From contig FNPA01000005.1 of NCBI GenBank assembly GCA_900107185.1, positions 62,001-126,000 of the forward strand: 64,000 nt of DNA, read 5' to 3'. The stretch comes from Ruminococcaceae bacterium YAD3003. GTDB lineage: Bacteria; Bacillota; Clostridia; Saccharofermentanales; Saccharofermentanaceae. Below the pieces are notes generated by a model. That model worked only from the letters and a program-made list of their open reading frames with translations, ran no database searches and was not told where the DNA came from. The translations under genes were made by a program, and so were the position numbers. This document shows positions 9,074-56,275 of this stretch, piece after piece (within the stretch, counting starts at the first letter, position 1; each line of letters opens with the position of its first letter).

Positions 9074-11769
9074 TACTTTGCTTCCAGCCAATCCTTTCCG
9101 AATCCAACCTCTGCAAGAAGCGGCACGCTTAATTTAGCTGCAGCTTCCATCTCGCTCTTGAGAATTTCAGCGCAGAGATCCTTATCTTCAATATTGCATT
9201 CACAAATAAGTTCATCATGAACCTGCATGACGAGTTTTGCAGAAGGCAGACGCTCTTCCAAAGCTTTGGATACACGGTTCATTGCAATCTTTATAATGTC
9301 AGCAGCTGTACCCTGGATAGGAGTATTCATTGCTGCTCTATAACCGAAGTTCTTAATATTTCTGTTCTGGCTCTTAAGTTCATTAAGGATTCTCTTACGG
9401 CCATACATAGTAACTGCATAACCCTTCTCCTCTCCTGATTTCTTCAATGAATCAAGATAAGAAGTGATACCCGGGAACTGATTGTTGTATTCCTTAATAA
9501 GCTCAGCAGCTTCCTTATATCCGATACCGAGATCTGTGGCCAGACCATATTCACTAATACCGTAGATGATGCTGAAGTTTACAGTTTTCGCTGTGGCTCT
9601 CATCTTATGAGTAACCATTTCTTCAGAAACACCGAATACCTTTGCTGCAGTTCTCTTATGAATGTCTTCGCCTTCCCTGAACGCGGAGCACATGATCTCA
9701 TCGCCGCTTAATGCAGCCAGGAGACGAAGCTCGATCTGAGAATAGTCAGCATCAACCAGGATTTTACCTTCTTCTGCAGTAAAAGCTTCACGAAGTCTTG
9801 AACCTTCTTCTGTTCTTACAGGAATATTTTGAAGATTAGGCTCTGTTGACGAGAGTCTTCCCGTATTAGTCATTGCCTGTGTAAATGTCGTATGAATACG
9901 TGAATCAGACTTGATCGAACGTGCGAGGCCAGACGCATAAGTGGAATCGAGTTTAGATATCTCCCGATACTTGATAATGTAATCAATTGCAGGAGAATAA
10001 TGTCTCAATCTGTTGAGTTCATCGATGCCTGTAGAGAAATCGCCGCTCTTACCTTTCTTACCGGAAGGAAGATTAAGATATTTCTCACCATATAAAACAT
10101 CAGCCAACTGCTTGGGTGAAGAGATATTAAACTCTGTTCCGCACTCGTCGTAAATATGAGCACTGATATCTTCCAGACGCTTTGTATACTCACTATGGAG
10201 CTCGGCAAGGCGCTCACCTGAAACATGCATTCCGTTACGCTCGATCTTATCAAGAGTAATTACGAGCGGGAATTCAATATCATACAAAAGATTCTTAAGG
10301 TCATTATCCTTTTCGATCGTGTCAGATAAAACCTTGGCGATAGCAACATCAACCAGGAGTTTTTCAGCACACTCCTGAACCTTTGATGAACCATCATCTT
10401 CAACGATTTCTTCAAACAGTGATAGCTGCTTTGCAGGGCCCCTCTTATCCTCAACAGGATAAGCAGAGAGCATAACACTCTCATATAATCTCTGGAGATC
10501 AGGCTTACCGGAAAGAATATTCAAAACATATCCGGCAATCTCCACATCGAAAACAGAATCAACTGACTTAAGAGGTTCCTTGATAAGTTTTGATCTGTCT
10601 TTGTACTGATAAGAAACAGGTAAAACTTTCTTACCTTCAGTAAGAGAATTAAATTCCTCAGGACTTAAAACATAAGCGGTTTTGCTGTTCCAATCGAGCA
10701 ACACAACTTTATTTCCCGAAGGAATATCAACAAAATCAACACCACAATTAAGGCTATCGAAATCAACAGACGAAGGGACCTCATACTTAACAGCTAAACC
10801 ATTTTTAAGCACGGTTTCAACTTCTGAAGAAACTGCACTGATGCTCTCATCTACTTCTACAGGAGCTTCAAAACCTGCAGGCTTAACATTCTCGAGATCA
10901 AGTTTCTTAAGAAGAGATTTTAATGCCAAACGGTTAAGAGCACCTGACATAGCAGGAAGATCTCTTGTTGATGAAGGATAAACAGCATCATCTGCCGTAT
11001 ATTCAACAGGTGATTCTCTGTCGATGGTACAAAGCTTGATATTAAGTGCAAGTAAATCAACTGATGCCTTAACTCTCTCACTCAATGCAGGGGATAACTT
11101 ATCCGCATTAGCAATTACGTTATCACAAGAACCATAGTCTGCGATAAGTTTAAATGCGGTCTTCTCTCCTACCTTCTCAACACCTTTGATGTTGTCGGAG
11201 TTATCACCCATAAGAGCCTTAACCTGAACGAAAACTTCAGGTTTAACACCATAAGTTTCCTCGAACAGTGCTCTGTCATATAAAACACGGGGTTCTTTAC
11301 CTTTACCAGACTGCGGCATGATTACTGACACCTTATCTGAAATGAGCTGGAAATCATCGTGGTCACCACTAAAGATATATACTTCCATTCCCTTTTCTTC
11401 GCCTTGCTTTGACAAGGTTCCGATAAGATCATCTGCTTCATAACCAGCGAGTTCCATACGGCAAATACCGTAGAGATCAAGGAGATTTTTAACTACAGGC
11501 ATCTGGGCAGCGAGATCATCAGGCATACCCTTGCGGTTGGCCTTATACTCAGTGCTCATCTTATGTCTGAATGTAGGTTCTCTCCTGTCAAAAAGAACAC
11601 ACATGTGATCAGGATTGTATTCCTTCATGACACCAAGGACAGAATTGAAAAATCCGTTTACTGCACCTGTTGGTGTTCCATCAGGAGCAGTCATCGGAGC
11701 TCTGCCGATAACGGCATAGTAAGCTCTGTTCATGATTGAATTTCCGTCTACAAGAAGGAGCCTGCTCAT
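9073..11769 (-). CDS. polA: DNA polymerase I
   Basis: Okazaki-fragment maturation and repair synthesis. 898 residues: N-terminal 5'-3' nuclease (LLLVDGNSIMNRAYYA, GYEADDLIGTL, SGDHDDFQLIS), a central 3'-5' exonuclease-like fold, and the polymerase domain with motif A DADYSQIELRLLAALSGD, the finger helix RATAKTVNFSIIYG and motif C QVHDELICE. In the central fold the DxE of exonuclease motif I is absent, so no proofreading is expected, as in Bacillus and Thermus Pol I. The ATG at 11769 lies 11 bases after the activase gene, and coaE follows with overlap. Confidence 0.97.
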   Translation of the reverse strand: MSRLLLVDGNSIMNRAYYAVIGRAPMTAPDGTPTGAVNGFFNSVLGVMKEYNPDHMCVLFDRREPTFRHKMSTEYKANRKGMPDDLAAQMPVVKNLLDLYGICRMELAGYEADDLIGTLSKQGEEKGMEVYIFSGDHDDFQLISDKVSVIMPQSGKGKEPRVLYDRALFEETYGVKPEVFVQVKALMGDNSDNIKGVEKVGEKTAFKLIADYGSCDNVIANADKLSPALSERVKASVDLLALNIKLCTIDRESPVEYTADDAVYPSSTRDLPAMSGALNRLALKSLLKKLDLENVKPAGFEAPVEVDESISAVSSEVETVLKNGLAVKYEVPSSVDFDSLNCGVDFVDIPSGNKVVLLDWNSKTAYVLSPEEFNSLTEGKKVLPVSYQYKDRSKLIKEPLKSVDSVFDVEIAGYVLNILSGKPDLQRLYESVMLSAYPVEDKRGPAKQLSLFEEIVEDDGSSKVQECAEKLLVDVAIAKVLSDTIEKDNDLKNLLYDIEFPLVITLDKIERNGMHVSGERLAELHSEYTKRLEDISAHIYDECGTEFNISSPKQLADVLYGEKYLNLPSGKKGKSGDFSTGIDELNRLRHYSPAIDYIIKYREISKLDSTYASGLARSIKSDSRIHTTFTQAMTNTGRLSSTEPNLQNIPVRTEEGSRLREAFTAEEGKILVDADYSQIELRLLAALSGDEIMCSAFREGEDIHKRTAAKVFGVSEEMVTHKMRATAKTVNFSIIYGISEYGLATDLGIGYKEAAELIKEYNNQFPGITSYLDSLKKSGEEKGYAVTMYGRKRILNELKSQNRNIKNFGYRAAMNTPIQGTAADIIKIAMNRVSKALEERLPSAKLVMQVHDELICECNIEDKDLCAEILKSEMEAAAKLSVPLLAEVGFGKDWLEAK

Positions 11770-11780
11770 TGTGTTTCCCC

Positions 11781-14700
11781 TTATTTCTTCTTATTCTCGT
11801 CTTCGATTTCCTGAGCTCTTACAGAATGAGCTGTGCTGATCATGAGCTTGATTCTGTTGAGCTGGTTAGCTTCAGATGCACCAGGGTCATAGTCGATAGG
11901 AACGATGTTGGAATTAGGATATTGTCTTCTGAGTTCCTTGATCATTCCCTTACCTGTTACATGGTTAGGAAGACATGCGAAAGGCTGTGCACAGATTATA
12001 TTCGGTACACCATCCTGAATGAGTTCGATCATTTCAGCTGTAAGGAACCATCCCTCACCGCAGGAGTTACCGCAGCTCAATACTGAAGATGACTTTTCTG
12101 CGAGTTCCTGGATTCTCTCAGTCAGCATGAACTTACCATTAGTCTTCTTGAACTCTTTGTTGATAGGCTTTCGAAGTGACTCAAGGAAAGTAATGGCCAT
12201 ATTCATAATGTGACTGGTCTTCTTGCTCTTACCAAGATTCTGAGCCTGCCAGATAGGGTTATAAGCGCAATAGAGGAAGAAGTCCAAAACGCCCGGCAAT
12301 ACAGCCTCACAACCTTCTGCCTCGATAACATCAATTGCGTTGTTATTTGCATCAGGCTGGAACTTAACGAGGATCTCACCAACAAGACCTACACGAGGTT
12401 TTCTCGGAATATCAGCAAGAGGCAGAGCATCAAACTTTGCAACTGCAAACTTAACGAATTCCTTGTACTTAGTAATAACAGGAACATTATCAAGGTCAAC
12501 GCCGATAGAGAGCAAGCAGTCTCTGATCTCTTTCTTCTGCTCGATCGATTTTGAGAAATAACTGTTAGGCATAACAACATCGTATCTCTCTGTCAGATCA
12601 TCATTCATCAACTTAGGGTTAAATAATCTTCTGCCGATTCTGTTGATGTATGAATACAAAGCATTTGCAGATCCTTCAACCTTCTCATAAGGTCTTACTC
12701 TCAAGAGTAATGTTGAGAGCATATCGCCTGCACACAAAGCCTTAACGGCATCGAGAATAAATGAAACAGAGTATTCAAAGCCTTCGTTCTTCTCAAATCT
12801 CTGAGCAGAAATAGTGATTACAGGAATCTGGGGATAACCGGCTTCCTTCAATGCCTTTCTTAAGAAAGCAACGTAGTTAGTTGCACGGCATCCACCACCT
12901 GTCTGTGTGATTGCGAGCGTTGTGTTATCAGGATCTATCTCGCCGCTTAAAATAGCATTGATCATCTGACCGATAACAATGATCGTCGGGAAACAAGCAT
13001 CGTTATTAACATACTTAAGACCACACTCGATATCTTCCCTTGTAGCCTGCTTCAGGAGCTTTAACTTATATCCATGCTTGTGGAAAACAGACTCTACGAG
13101 CTCGAACTGGATAGGAGCCATCTGAGGAGCAAGGATAGTGTGATTCTTCTTATGTTCCTTAGTGAACTCAACTCTATGCATCGTATAAGGTGCATCTTCA
13201 GAATCAGCATACATAACTGTGCTCTTCTGACCGTTTGCTTCGAGTTCTAATCTCTCGTTCATTGCTACAACAAGAGATCTCATTCTGATTCTAGCCGCAC
13301 CGAGGTTACTTACCTCATCGATCTTAAGGAGTGTATAAAGCTTACCGGAGGACTCAAGGATCTCCTGTACCTGATCAGATGTAACAGCATCAAGTCCGCA
13401 TCCGAAGCTTGTAAGCTGAACGAGTTCCAGATCAGGTCTTGTAATTACGAAAGCAGCTGCCTCATAAAGTCTTGTGTGATACATCCACTGGTCAATAACT
13501 CTGATAGGACGCTTCAACACACCAGGCTTTGCAACAGCATCTTCAGTAAGAACTGCAAGCCCCAAAGAGTTGATCATCTCAGGAATACCGTGGTTGATCT
13601 CAGGATCGCAGTGATAAGGTCTGCCTGCGAGGACAATACCTTTAAGACCCTTTTCTTCCATCTCTTTTAAGATCTCGACACCCTTTTGTCTGATGTCTTC
13701 CTTGTACTTGTAATACTCCTCTGCGCCTGCCTCTACTGCAGCCTTTGCTTCTTCAGCAGAAACACCGAGATAGTTGAAAATCTCAGTTAAATGCAGAGCA
13801 ACATTATCAAGATTATCAAGCGGCATAAACGGATTTAAGTACTTGATATTCTTCTCTGTGAGGTTTTCAACGTTATTACGTATTACCTCAGGATATGAGC
13901 ATACAATCGGACAGTTATAGTGGTTATTTGAATTCTGGTTCTCGATATTCTCATAAGGAACATCAGGATAGAAGATCGTTTTGATTCCTCTGGAGATGAG
14001 ATTCTCAATATGACCGTGAGCAAGTTTTGCTGGATAGCATACAGACTCAGACGGAATAGTCTCCATACCGCCTTCATAGATCTTATGTGAGGATCTCGCT
14101 GAAATAAGAACTCTGAATCCGAGCTTTGTAAGTACAGTAAACCAGAAAGGATAATTCTCATACTGGTTAAGAACTCTGGGAATACCAATCTCACCACGGG
14201 GAGCTTCCTCGATCTTCAGAGGCTTATAATACTTGAAAGTTCTGGAATACTTATATTCAAAGAGGTTAGGAAGCTTCTCCTTATTCTTAACAGGAGCACG
14301 GTCAAGAGCCAGGTCCTCACCTCTCTCGCAACGGTTACCGGATACGAACTTGGTACCATTGGAGAATGTAGCAATAGTAAGACGGCAGTGGTTTGTACAA
14401 CCCTGGCACTGTGTATTCTCTGTATCCATCTGGAATGAATCGAGTTCATCCTTACCGAGAACATTGGATTTTGATCCGTCCTTTGCTCTCTTCTGGGCAA
14501 TAAGAGCAGCACCAAAAGCACCCATCAAACCGGCAACATTAGGTCTGATAACATCTCTACCTGATACGAGCTCAAAACATCTCAAAATAGCATCGTTGAG
14601 GAATGTACCGCCCTGAACGACAATATTCTTACCGAGCTGTTCAGTATCACGGATCTTAATAACTTTATAAAGCGCATTTCTGACAACAGAATAAGAGAGA

Positions 14701-51337: not shown

Positions 51338-54300
51338 TCACATAAGATCGAACAGGTTGATCTGGGCACTCTCCGGGAGATCATCAAGGATTCCGCCGTA
51401 GTCCAGAAGTTTCTGTGTTACAGACTGACCTACACCCGTTCTCTTCATGAAATCATCACGGTTCTTAAACGGCGCTTCAGCTCTTGCTTTTTCTATTGCT
51501 TCACCGTTTGCAGGAGAAACAGCAGGAATAGCACAGAACGGAGGTCTTATGAGTTTAGGACCAGCTTTTGCGAACTTCTTACCGAGTGAATCGTTAAGAG
51601 TAATAGGTGCAAAAGTAATTCCTCTTGCATACATTTCTTCTACAAGCTCATAGAAATAGTACTTGAGTTTTGTATTCGGATCGCCCTTCGCATGCATCTC
51701 GTCAGCAAGTTCAATTCTTCTCTTCTTTACCTTTTCAGGACCGTTACACATATCTTCGGCGTTAAACAATCCTTCGCCTCTGTGTGTAAAGAATGAGCAG
51801 TAATATTCTTCCGGATAGTAAACCTTAAACCATGCTACACGAAGAGTAGAGATTGAATATGCGGCTGCATGTGCCTTAGGGAACATGTACTTGATCTTCT
51901 GACAAGATTCAATGTACCAGTCAGGTACACCGCACTTCTTCATCTCTTCAACATACTCAGGCCATTTCTCAACTTTGCCTGCAGCAACCTTACCTTTACG
52001 TACACCCTCCATGATGTCGAACGCATCTTTATTGGGAAGGCCCCAATAAATAAGGCTGGTCATGATGGAGTCACGGCATCCGATAACGGAATTAAGGTCG
52101 CATGTTCCGGCTCTGATAAGATCCTGGGCATTTCCTGTCCAAACGTCAGTACCGTGAGAAAGACCCATGAGCTGTACGAGGTCGTAGAACCTTGTAGGCT
52201 TTGTCTCCTTGATCATGCCTCGCGCCATGTTGGTACCAAGCTCTGAAAGACCCAGCGTAGCTGAACCTGCATCAGTAGCTTCGATCGGGAATCCTAAAGC
52301 ATCCGTATTTACAAGAAGGCTCATTACCTTCTCATCAGGAATCGGAATATCAGTAATGTTTACTCCGGTAATATCACTTAACATTCTTAATACCGTAGGA
52401 TCGGCATGTCCGAGAATATCAAGTTTAAGGATAGTATCGTGCATAGCACGGAAGTCAAAGTGCGTTGTTATGATTCCGCAATCAGTCTTATTAGCCGGGA
52501 ACTGGATAGGTGTAAATTCATAGATATCCATTTCCTTTGCAATAACGACGATACCACCCGGATGCTGAGAAGTTGTTCTCTTAACACCGATGATGTCTCT
52601 TGCCATGAATGCGAGATGTGCCTGAGTGAACGGTTCGCCCTTCTCTTCGCAGATCTTGCGGCATACACCATAAGCATTCTTATCCTGGTAAGCACCAATC
52701 GTTCCGGCCTTGAATGTATGCGTACCGCCAAAGAGTACACCTACATAAGCATGAGCTCTAGGCTGGTATTCACCGGAGAAGTTAAGGTCGATATCAGGCT
52801 GTTTATCACCCTTGAATCCAAGGAACGTCTCGAAAGGAATATCCTGTCCGTCCGGTGTCAGCGGTTCACCGCATTCAGGACAATTCTTCGGCGGAAGGTC
52901 ATATCCTGAACCGTACTTACCGCTGTTATCGAATTCAGCATAGTTACACTTCTTACATCTGTAATGCGGAGGCAGAGGGTTAACTTCAGAAATACCGCAC
53001 ATAGTAGCAGCAAACGAGGAACCTACTGAACCTCTGGAACCTACAACATATCCGTCGTTATTGGACTTCTTAACGAGTCTGTATGCGATGTAGTACATGA
53101 TCGCATAACCATTGTTGATAATGGAATCTAGCTCTCTGTCGAGTCTTGCCTTAACGACTTCGTTAAGAACACCCTTATGACGGTACATCCTATTTGCCTT
53201 TGTATAAGCAATATCTCTAACATCGGCAGCAGCTCTTGCGATCTGCGGAGGATAAGATCCGTCAGGGAAAGGCTTGATTCCGAATTCGATCATGTCAGCG
53301 ATCATGTTGGTGTTATCGACAACAACTTCCATCGCCTTTTCTTCACCGAGATACTTAAATTCTTCGAGCATCTCATCAGTTGTTCTGAAATACAGATCAC
53401 TCTGCATCTCAGCATCATCAAAGCCCATGCTCATAAGCATGTACTTTCTGTATCTACCGTCTTCCTTATTAAGGAAATGTGAGTCTGTCGTAGCGCATAC
53501 AGGCATACCGTGATCGTCTGCCGTCTCAACGAGCAGCTCATTAACAATACGGATGTCATCCTCGTTCATCGGAGTAGTTCCTGTATCAGATTTAGAAGGA
53601 TCCTGTCTCGTAATGAACATATTGTTGCAAAGAGGCTGGATCTCCACATAGTCATAGAGACTTAATATCTTTGAGAACTCTTCTGATTCTTTCAGGAATT
53701 CTCTTGTTGCCTGTCTGTCTTTGTTTAAAGACCTGTATTGAGTAATAACATAGCGGTATATCTCACCACGCTCGCAGGCACCACCTACAATAATTCCGGA
53801 CTTGAAATACTTAAGAAGACTCTTAGGCGTTCTCGGTCTTCTCGCATAGTAGTGTATCTGTGATTCAGATACGATACGGTAAAGGTTATAAAGTCCCATA
53901 TTAGAGCGCACAAGATAAATGATGTGATACATCGGCGCAATAGGAAGTTTATTGGCGTTCTTATCGTTTGACTTAATTCTGGCGGGAGTATAATGTCCGA
54001 CTTTATAGTTAATATCGAGAGCATCAACTGTACCGGCATCTATTAGGCAAGAAGCTAGCAATGATGCTGACTTATAACATGCGGTAAACATATCATCAAA
54101 CTCACTGCCGACTGCAGTGTAATTGAACAATGTACCCTTGGAACTTAATGCTTCGTCTACTGTCTTGAATTCACCCTTATAGAATGTCTCAAGAATATCT
54201 TCATCAGAAGTAGCAGGCATAAGGAACTTATGTCTGTAATACACCTGATCTTCAATGTTGATTCCATAACCTGCACGGCGAAGGAAAGCAAGCGTAGTGA

Positions 54301-56275
54301 AGATATCAGGACCTGTTATGTATGAATCACCGATGAATTCGAGAAGTTCTCCCATTGCAAAATATGAATCGCAAGGCTCTCCCGTACCGGGGTAGATTGC
54401 ATCTTCAAATTCAGCATGGAAATCAGCCACATGCTCGAAAACAAGTTCAGAAGGAATAACTTCATCTGTACCGTCAGCATATTCATCTTTAACATCACGT
54501 TCGATATTTACGGTCATGCCTAATGGTTCATGAGGTTCCAAAGGCTTCTTGGTGATATTCTCATCTCTCAATTCTTCGGGGACTTCACTCGGATCCCAGA
54601 GAGACTTATCTATATCGTGAGACGCAAATTCCATTGCATCCTGATCAGATTCACCCTCTTCTTCGGGCTTAACAGCCTTATATCCCTTCAGTCTGTATTT
54701 GGATGCACAGACCGACGTGAATGTATCACGCAGAGCATCGTCGCCGTTTCGCTTGATAACAATAGAAACAAAAGACCCGACTGCCTTCGGCTTGAAAATG
54801 AAGTTCAGTGAAGCATCATCATCAACATCTGAAGGTTTGATCTTATCGTTCTTAACGTCATAAGGAAGGTTATAGAAAACAGTAGGGCCGTCATCTACCA
54901 GATATCCTTCACAACCGAGGATACACTTAATAGGTGCTTCTCCGGTATCTTTGCGCTTTTTATTGATGCCTTTAGCAGCCTCAAATACATGAGGAAATGC
55001 CTGAACAACACCGTGGTCAGTAACCGCACATGCCGAGTGACCGAATTGAGCTGCAAGCTTAATCAGATCAGCAGGATCTGTCGTCGCGTCGCTCTCACTC
55101 ATCTTGGTGTGCACATGGAGCTCTACTCTCTTACGTTCTGCAGTATCTTTTCTCTTCGGTGGTTTCTCTGCACTGAAGAATCCTGATACCTTAAGACACT
55201 TATCGCCCGTAAAAGAGTCATTCTCGACATTACCCTGAATGCCGACATAACCGCCCTTACCAAATTCTTTCTGGAATCCGTCAGCTTCTTCTGGCTTTAA
55301 GAAAGCAATACATGAAATACCGTCTGTATCATCAAGGCACATGAACTTAACGATTACACTTCTGCCAGTTTTCGCGAGTTTAAAAGAGTCTTCGTTAAAT
55401 ATGAGATTACCTGCGATATTTACGTCAAAGCAGCCGATAGTCAGATTCGCAATCTTCATAAAAGTCGCCTGCTTCTTTACTTTACCGTAAAGCTGGTTAT
55501 CAGCATTAGCCTGAGCCTTATAATCGAACTTTTTCTCTTCCTGTTTAGCTTCTTTTCTAAGCTGCTGGGCCTTAGCCTCCCAGGAATTTTTATTAGGTTT
55601 TGTATCTGAATCTTCTTTCTTTTCAGATTTATTCTTCTTACCTGAACCTTTGCCTGTATCAGCAGGAACCTCATAATCTTCAAATTTCAGTTCCTTCATA
55701 GCCTGATAGATATCATCAGGCATGAGATCACTGCCTGCAATATCAGGATCAATGGTCTCTATTTCAAATCTGCCGGGAATATCAGTGCCCAGACATATAT
55801 AGCTGGCTTCTCTTACAGACTCAATAATGTTCTTCTTTTCAGAATCGCTGAGCATCAATGCCCAACCCGAAAGAATGTTGATATAAGTAACGTAGCCAAA
55901 ACAATCACCACTGTCATAATCAACATCAGCCTTAAGGTCGATGTTGTCTGCCGGGTTACTTACTTCATTTTTGTTATCTCTGGCAACGTAATACTTAATC
56001 AGATCACTGACAGCCTCATAGGCAGTCGGAAAATTAATGTCGTCAAAACCTTTGAATGTAAAATTCACTCTGGTTCCAAAATCATTCTCCAGATCATGAA
56101 CAAATGAAACGAGACTGTTTTTACCACTCAAAGACTCAACACCGTCAATAATAATATTGACGGATGCCTTAGCCTTATAGATGTCTACCTTCTGAACATA
56201 AAGCTCACTTAAATCCTTGTATCTGTCACTGTCTACGTTAAACAGATCAAGTAGTTTTACATTTATCTTCTCCAA
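51338..56275 (-). CDS. polC: DNA polymerase III alpha subunit, Gram-positive type PolC, with degenerate exonuclease region
   Basis: Main replicative polymerase. 1645 residues, against about 1440 in Bacillus. N-terminal domain (1-200), a Lys/Glu-rich linker (205-265), OB fold (270-370), PHP part 1 (384-465: H387, H389, D396, D420, H421, E456), an enlarged exonuclease-like insert (470-770), PHP part 2 to D931/H933, a zinc finger (CKKC, CPEC), and the palm with D1161/D1163 (PDIDLNFSG) and D1286 (LKLDILGH). The clamp-binding INLF sits at the end. In the insert FKPKAVG (494-500) stands where FDxETTG should be. Start is a TTG at 56275 with GGAAG nine bases upstream; no in-frame ATG follows for about 140 codons. 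Confidence 0.95.
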   Translation of the reverse strand: MEKINVKLLDLFNVDSDRYKDLSELYVQKVDIYKAKASVNIIIDGVESLSGKNSLVSFVHDLENDFGTRVNFTFKGFDDINFPTAYEAVSDLIKYYVARDNKNEVSNPADNIDLKADVDYDSGDCFGYVTYINILSGWALMLSDSEKKNIIESVREASYICLGTDIPGRFEIETIDPDIAGSDLMPDDIYQAMKELKFEDYEVPADTGKGSGKKNKSEKKEDSDTKPNKNSWEAKAQQLRKEAKQEEKKFDYKAQANADNQLYGKVKKQATFMKIANLTIGCFDVNIAGNLIFNEDSFKLAKTGRSVIVKFMCLDDTDGISCIAFLKPEEADGFQKEFGKGGYVGIQGNVENDSFTGDKCLKVSGFFSAEKPPKRKDTAERKRVELHVHTKMSESDATTDPADLIKLAAQFGHSACAVTDHGVVQAFPHVFEAAKGINKKRKDTGEAPIKCILGCEGYLVDDGPTVFYNLPYDVKNDKIKPSDVDDDASLNFIFKPKAVGSFVSIVIKRNGDDALRDTFTSVCASKYRLKGYKAVKPEEEGESDQDAMEFASHDIDKSLWDPSEVPEELRDENITKKPLEPHEPLGMTVNIERDVKDEYADGTDEVIPSELVFEHVADFHAEFEDAIYPGTGEPCDSYFAMGELLEFIGDSYITGPDIFTTLAFLRRAGYGINIEDQVYYRHKFLMPATSDEDILETFYKGEFKTVDEALSSKGTLFNYTAVGSEFDDMFTACYKSASLLASCLIDAGTVDALDINYKVGHYTPARIKSNDKNANKLPIAPMYHIIYLVRSNMGLYNLYRIVSESQIHYYARRPRTPKSLLKYFKSGIIVGGACERGEIYRYVITQYRSLNKDRQATREFLKESEEFSKILSLYDYVEIQPLCNNMFITRQDPSKSDTGTTPMNEDDIRIVNELLVETADDHGMPVCATTDSHFLNKEDGRYRKYMLMSMGFDDAEMQSDLYFRTTDEMLEEFKYLGEEKAMEVVVDNTNMIADMIEFGIKPFPDGSYPPQIARAAADVRDIAYTKANRMYRHKGVLNEVVKARLDRELDSIINNGYAIMYYIAYRLVKKSNNDGYVVGSRGSVGSSFAATMCGISEVNPLPPHYRCKKCNYAEFDNSGKYGSGYDLPPKNCPECGEPLTPDGQDIPFETFLGFKGDKQPDIDLNFSGEYQPRAHAYVGVLFGGTHTFKAGTIGAYQDKNAYGVCRKICEEKGEPFTQAHLAFMARDIIGVKRTTSQHPGGIVVIAKEMDIYEFTPIQFPANKTDCGIITTHFDFRAMHDTILKLDILGHADPTVLRMLSDITGVNITDIPIPDEKVMSLLVNTDALGFPIEATDAGSATLGLSELGTNMARGMIKETKPTRFYDLVQLMGLSHGTDVWTGNAQDLIRAGTCDLNSVIGCRDSIMTSLIYWGLPNKDAFDIMEGVRKGKVAAGKVEKWPEYVEEMKKCGVPDWYIESCQKIKYMFPKAHAAAYSISTLRVAWFKVYYPEEYYCSFFTHRGEGLFNAEDMCNGPEKVKKRRIELADEMHAKGDPNTKLKYYFYELVEEMYARGITFAPITLNDSLGKKFAKAGPKLIRPPFCAIPAVSPANGEAIEKARAEAPFKNRDDFMKRTGVGQSVTQKLLDYGGILDDLPESAQINLFDLM

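Follow-up and report, generated by a model that had tools for sequence, protein, structure and literature searches.

The PolC encoded in the window (the whole stretch of 64,000 nucleotides analysed here) carries an exonuclease (Exo) domain that, judged from its sequence, is a pseudo-exonuclease maintained by selection. The domain has kept its place inside the PHP domain and its predicted DnaQ-type fold and has lost all five DEDDh catalytic residues, and the nine-residue metal site of the PHP domain, HHDHEH[C/H]DH, is complete. Taking the explanation as a whole, we consider it probable that the dead DEDDh site is kept as a scaffold and that the PHP site, whose activity we infer, is the most likely proofreader of this PolC.

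The gene (51338..56275, reverse strand, as are all its features given below) is an unbroken frame of 1645 codons. Its product scores 1239 bits against NF001688 (cut-off 873) and 1117 bits against TIGR01405 (cut-off 1043), which places it above both curated models and identifies it as a PolC-type DNA polymerase III. The frame starts with TTG and overlaps by 29 bases (56247-56275) the end of the upstream frame, which we take to be ispG-like. The source genome (2.67 Mb in 30 contigs) is 99.9% complete, and the nearest PolC records are labelled Saccharofermentans, Ruminococcaceae or Clostridiales and come from rumen and gut. Pfam finds the PHP and polymerase domains, with no RNase_T match at E up to 1. 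The first part of the PHP domain (residues 381-463, 54887..55135; PF02811, E 3.5e-22) supplies the metal ligands H387, H389, D396, H421 and E456, and the second part (783-940, 53456..53929) supplies H784, C834, D931 and H933; between them lies the dead exonuclease domain (464-782, 53930..54886). In an alignment of the window PolC with 67 of 71 relatives (68 rows; L033, L036 and L068 were left out as partial and L069 because no frame was chosen), the PHP ligands HHDHEHCDH, those of the first part included, and the polymerase catalytic aspartates (D1161, D1163 and D1286, spanning 52418..52795) are conserved in 68/68 rows. A pattern scan also picked out the C-terminal motif QINLF (1638-1642, 51350..51364), presumably clamp-binding-like by the motif rule behind the scan.

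The same alignment places V506, K508, T661, D727 and A732 at the five DEDDh positions, so that none of the five catalytic residues remains, as the earlier note had claimed. All five are kept in 21 of the 68 PolCs and none or one in the other 47, the window included; no row keeps two to four. Since the loss is shared by so many PolCs, it is not an assembly error. Pfam recognises RNase_T in all 21 intact Exo regions and in none of the 32 dead ones submitted (of 47), which match no other Pfam family either, and across the dead rows the residues at the five catalytic positions are free to vary. The window Exo region thus lacks both the DEDDh (DnaQ) residues and an RNase_T match, and has the DnaQ fold by model.

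The decayed motifs can nevertheless be located. We assign motif I to the strand FVSIVIKRNG (502-511, 54743..54772), with V506 in place of Asp and K508 in place of Glu, because three relatives read FVTIDMKTTG (L029), FVTIDIKTTG (L042) and FVTLDIRTTG (L046) there; these look like staged remnants that retain the Asp and TTG of motif I and replace the Glu with Lys or Arg. Other stages of decay are seen in the Exo motifs of G073, G124 and G171. FKPKAVG (494-500), which had been proposed as motif I, lies ahead of the model's first long strand (model residues 38-46, equivalent to 501-509) and is rejected. Motif II falls on the helix GPDIFTTLAF (655-664, 54284..54313; Asp replaced by T661), within the half of the domain that hhalign covers at a probability of 98.0; the earlier proposal of TGPDIFT (654-660) had found the right place, with the register one residue off (655-661, GPDIFTT). 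Motif III, for which no counterpart had been recognised, corresponds by alignment and hhalign to FDDMFTACYKS (726-736, 54068..54100), in which D727 replaces His and A732 replaces Asp.

The domain is not deleted, as had been concluded from a region of about 300 residues: 319 residues stand at the Exo place, against 225 in an intact relative, or about 94 extra. Of the 85-110 extra residues, acidic and disordered, that had been suggested between motifs I and II, the flexible acidic character fits, and the number is lower, since the span between the two motifs is 155 residues in the window and 91 in L047, a difference of about 64. An acidic insert of the window's clade lies at 536-615 (54431..54670), and a pLDDT of 60-66 across residues 534-583 of the Exo model fits a flexible insert there. 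Despite this low model confidence, the insert holds residues that are invariant among the dead rows, including a conserved stretch around SLWD (558-561). The sole pattern match to a clamp-binding motif inside the dead Exo, QDAMEF at 545, was rejected because its Gln is replaced by Lys, Glu or Asp in relatives; no conserved clamp motif was found in the domain.

The structure prediction that the earlier note had proposed supports homology to the PolC exonuclease. The AlphaFold2 model of residues 464-782 (pLDDT 84, pTM 0.82) has as its top structural match the exonuclease part of Enterococcus faecium PolC (9qrn), with Z 16.0 and an rmsd of 3.3 across 170 aligned residues; next come DinG and exonucleases of the DnaQ type, E. 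coli epsilon among them (2gui, Z 11.5). Foldseek gives modest E-values, 6.8e-05 at best and 4.8e-03 for PolC. A second model, of PHP plus Exo, matches the PolC structures 9qpc and 3f2b and DnaE PHP domains, and an rmsd of 17.8 across both domains implies that the modelled placement of Exo against PHP is unlike that in E. faecium. Because intact relatives make up 21 of the 68 sequences behind the Exo model and 16 of the 52 behind the PHP plus Exo model, the predicted fold is not independent proof of homology. Aligned against each other by hhalign, the dead and intact families match with a probability of 98.0 (E 2.3e-13) over the half that holds motifs II and III, and the half with motif I is left unaligned. 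A profile of the dead domain found no match among PDB sequences up to E 1, and the case for homology is made by the fold, hhalign and the intermediates. Together, the models predict that the window PolC keeps an Exo-type insertion in its PHP domain and is hence not an Exo-less PolC.

Patterns of substitution indicate that the dead Exo domain is evolving under purifying selection. Across 13 pairs of relatives with a dead Exo, dN/dS is 0.054-0.121 in the Exo region against 0.010-0.049 in the polymerase part; in seven pairs from the intact sister clade, the corresponding values are 0.013-0.076 and 0.009-0.036. Single values are rough, as many synonymous distances exceed 1. Per pair, the ratio of Exo to polymerase dN/dS is 1.2-5.6 for dead and 1.4-4.1 for intact domains, and the dead domain thus shows no clear excess of relaxation over the intact one. 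The suggestion that the fold is kept as a scaffold fits a domain that is predicted to fold and is under selection.

A survey of related PolCs, likewise proposed in the earlier note, found the same loss in 46 other records, and we extended it across the order by adding the PolCs of 40 more genomes and two additional copies. A dead-but-kept Exo is found in g1 and, within the same family, in g27, g29 and g30 (one genome sampled each). In family f2 it is found in g5 (7/7), g8 (3/3), g26 (4/4) and g21 (1/3), and in family f4 in the single g7 genome. Intact Exo domains are found in g28, f3 (6/6), f4 (6/7), g21 (2/3) and g2. Two dead Exos, those of G124 and G075, are still recognised as RNase_T by Pfam and look from their sequences like recent pseudo-exonucleases. 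In a class-wide sample, PolC is present in 110 of 118 genomes. Nineteen PolCs from other genera than the window's, all with no co-located RNase_T, were chosen by eye from lists; Exo is deleted in 17 of them, and two retain a degenerate insert (147 or 156 residues).

A 106-row PolC tree suggests that these losses were repeated. The tree, which excludes the Exo columns, comes from a quick search with SH-aLRT support only, contains some long branches and leaves out near-copies and L157 (a probable contaminant); the PolC of G270, apparently cut at a contig end, is outside the scoring of Exo states. The dead state requires seven changes on this tree, five of them forced by well-supported branches, and the deleted state five, three of them forced. 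For example, the dead Exo of G124 falls next to two intact sisters with an SH-aLRT of 100. If loss is irreversible, the tree allows about five to seven separate decay losses in the order; g1 may share its loss with g27, g29 and g30, and g5 with g8.

Two further observations concern PolC content in the order. Genome G007 holds, beside its window-type PolC, a second PolC-like protein of 1265 aa (L159, contig C1:217951-221676) with intact PHP ligands, a dead Exo and the polymerase aspartates replaced by Arg, Pro and Glu; its sequence suggests that it is possibly a PHP-only helper. In g15 of family f2, a PolC search at E 1e-8 returned none in any of seven genomes (G091, G094, G097, G100, G108, G129 and G137). 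These genomes are 90-97% complete and give weak DnaE-like matches in six cases and none in G091, and g15 is thus, by sequence search, apparently a genus without PolC within a PolC order.

The state of the PHP site was compared with that of Exo in 147 PolCs, leaving out L159, a paralogue that lacks the polymerase triad, and any frame in the first relative set no longer than 1450 aa. The PHP site is complete in 72/72 PolCs with a dead Exo and 17/17 with a deleted Exo, against 54/58 with an intact Exo; it is broken in 0/89 of the former two groups and in 4/58 of the latter, and no PolC among the 147 has both sites broken. The association (Fisher p 0.023 over the 147 related rows, uncorrected for kinship) is suggestive and no proof, since the test ignores kinship and the rows include many near-copies. 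Nor are the counts a random sample, since 19 Exo-less and 20 Exo-bearing class-level rows were picked by RNase_T status. The four rows with a broken PHP site are G070, G262, G288 and G061. G262 and G288 fall near each other on the 106-row tree, and the single PHP substitution of G061 is probably on a contaminant contig, because a second PolC, of the window type (60% identity), is encoded in the same genome, whose contamination is 6%. The PolC of G070 (L124) shows the reverse of the window's case, with DEDDh intact and the PHP site broken (HKDRELLNH).

These counts bear on how a replicase with a dead DEDDh site might proofread. The earlier note had read the window PolC as a replicase without its own proofreading. 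In that reading the PHP ligands would serve folding, and nucleotide selectivity and mismatch repair would suffice for fidelity. The loss of the DEDDh residues agrees with it, as do the presence of both MutS and MutL in the genome, which could absorb errors, and a Pol I without a recognised 3'-5' exonuclease domain. We nevertheless find it unsupported and judge it unlikely, as the nine PHP ligands are kept in the window and in all 89 Exo-dead or Exo-deleted PolCs, yet have decayed in some Exo-intact ones, and as Bacillus subtilis hypermutators have been built with a proofreading-deficient polC allele, according to the portion of that report at hand (PMC11890065). For Pol I (9076-11790, reverse strand), the note's claim that exonuclease motif I is lacking agrees with a Pfam search up to E 0.1, in which no 3'-5' exonuclease domain is recognised. 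This loss is ordinary, since about half of PolA1 carry substitutions in the DEDDy site according to a 2026 survey, as far as its text was available (PMC12926913). The former exonuclease region of the window Pol I contains QLSLF, a clamp-binding-like motif; of 23 Pol I loci from the genus, 14 have Q-x-S-L-F there, that of the window among them, and two of seven loci from other families have QQDLF. In the available text of that survey, PolA2 is presented as the first A-family polymerase seen to carry a clamp motif (PMC12926913).

Proofreading in trans, by another protein of the window genome or by separate DnaQ-like proteins elsewhere in the genus, is in our view somewhat less likely still. Outside PolC, a scan of the window genome up to E 0.001 gives a single RNase_T protein, of 328 aa on contig C9, which we take to be KapD-like. 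RNase_T proteins of similar size and score are also found in genomes with an intact Exo (G071 and G077), so that this protein did not plainly arrive to compensate. The search of the genome for a free DnaQ, which had been suggested as a check, found none by an RNase_T scan or by a profile of intact Exo domains, whose sole match was PolC itself (E 0.005); the genome-wide scan is less sensitive than hmmscan, having missed the degenerate PolC Exo of G075 (6.1e-08 by hmmscan). A separate DnaQ-like exonuclease is found in 24 of 70 same-genus genomes at E < 1e-20, a threshold at which all matches were covered, and compensation may thus differ within the genus. The remaining 46, the 99.9% complete window genome included and several of them incomplete, have no such protein at this threshold. 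By eye, 11 of 12 inspected DnaQ-like proteins have a zinc-ribbon-like end, and L154 of G019 is a DnaQ-like exonuclease of 399 aa with a C-terminal BRCT-like part. It is very improbable, to our mind, that the domain has kept exonuclease activity through a metal site that was moved or changed. Acidic residues such as D513, E540, E542, D554, D556, E614, D618 and D625 are invariant in 32 dead rows, but the model places two of the eight (E614 and D618) in a strand and the other six in loops or the insert, and the catalytic positions vary freely in a group of which 32 members have no Pfam match. We give almost no weight to an assembly, frameshift or binning artefact: most relatives are metagenome bins, but the frame of 1645 codons is intact, the loss recurs in the 46 other records, dN/dS is well below 1 in the dead region, and L021, from strain AB4001 and by its title not a MAG, reads VKTDS at the catalytic positions.

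The reading that we prefer, in which PolC's own PHP site proofreads, would run as follows. PolC of Clostridia would ordinarily combine a DEDDh exonuclease with a PHP metal site, each of which could proofread. The DEDDh residues would have been lost in an ancestor of the window's genus, and the dead domain retained as a selected, probably folded part of PolC that gained an acidic, probably flexible insert, whose conserved short stretch could serve as a docking element. PolC products would then most likely be proofread by its own PHP site, with the PHP site of DnaE1 (1218 aa in the window genome, ligands in place by motif) possibly helping and mismatch repair standing behind both. We infer all three roles, PHP as active proofreader, dead domain as scaffold and insert as docking element. 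A broader version, which we offer tentatively and with some doubt, is that the PolC of Clostridia has two proofreaders and tolerates the loss of either one, though never of both together. In the window's order, DEDDh would have died repeatedly and independently and PHP would have taken over, and in the window's genus the dead Exo would have become a docking or regulatory module of a replicase that proofreads by PHP.

This pattern fits ideas already in the literature, as far as the accessible parts of the cited papers go. Barros et al. connected the PHP variants of Pol III with the presence of epsilon as a separate subunit and in 2013 called the role of PHP in Pol III and PolC unclear (PMC3666897). 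The 2026 survey describes three active proofreaders in most Clostridia, a PHP site often inactive in the PolC of PolC plus DnaE3 systems, and Pol III alpha as a case in which PHP, not DnaQ, is inactivated (PMC12926913); to this last pattern the window PolC is an exception. DEDDh has been removed several times with PHP kept, and the reverse holds in a few PolCs. With DEDDh gone, any proofreading in such PolCs must come from PHP or from an outside protein, and the role of PHP in PolC becomes accessible to direct experiment. There is also a practical consequence, as one study defined PolC by an RNase_T match inside PHP (PMC11963600), and pipelines demanding such a match would miss the window PolC.

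Compared with known systems, the window PolC shares its domain order, with Exo inside PHP, with the DEDDh-bearing PolC of B. subtilis and E. faecium (9QPC/9QRN; PMC12592400, in the part available), and its predicted Exo fold with the latter (Z 16.0); it differs from both in lacking all five catalytic residues, and its Exo exceeds the intact domain of relatives by about 94 residues. Exo-less PolCs, in which the insertion is absent, are reported as 6% of PolC, from Clostridia, Negativicutes and one Thermotogae copy (PMC3919608, as summarised there). They resemble the window PolC in the absence of DEDDh function and the retention of PHP ligands, as do the 17 clean deletions found here; unlike them, the window PolC retains a domain that is predicted to be folded, is under selection and is enlarged. 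A vestigial DnaQ-fold domain kept in a polymerase is also described for Pol I and PolA2/APEX, where, in the part of the account available, a PolA2 loop holds the clamp motif (PMC12926913), whereas the window PolC is a replicative C-family enzyme. In Mycobacterium tuberculosis DnaE1, the PHP site proofreads (PMC5636811, as summarised there), and the nine metal ligands of that PHP-exonuclease are present in the window PolC, where by analogy the activity is putative and the PHP domain, unlike that of DnaE1, has a dead DnaQ domain inserted in it. Among papers seen at abstract level, mostly open-access, there is no report of a PolC that retains an inactive Exo. The dead-but-kept PolC Exo is intermediate between two states already described, an active Exo and a deleted one.
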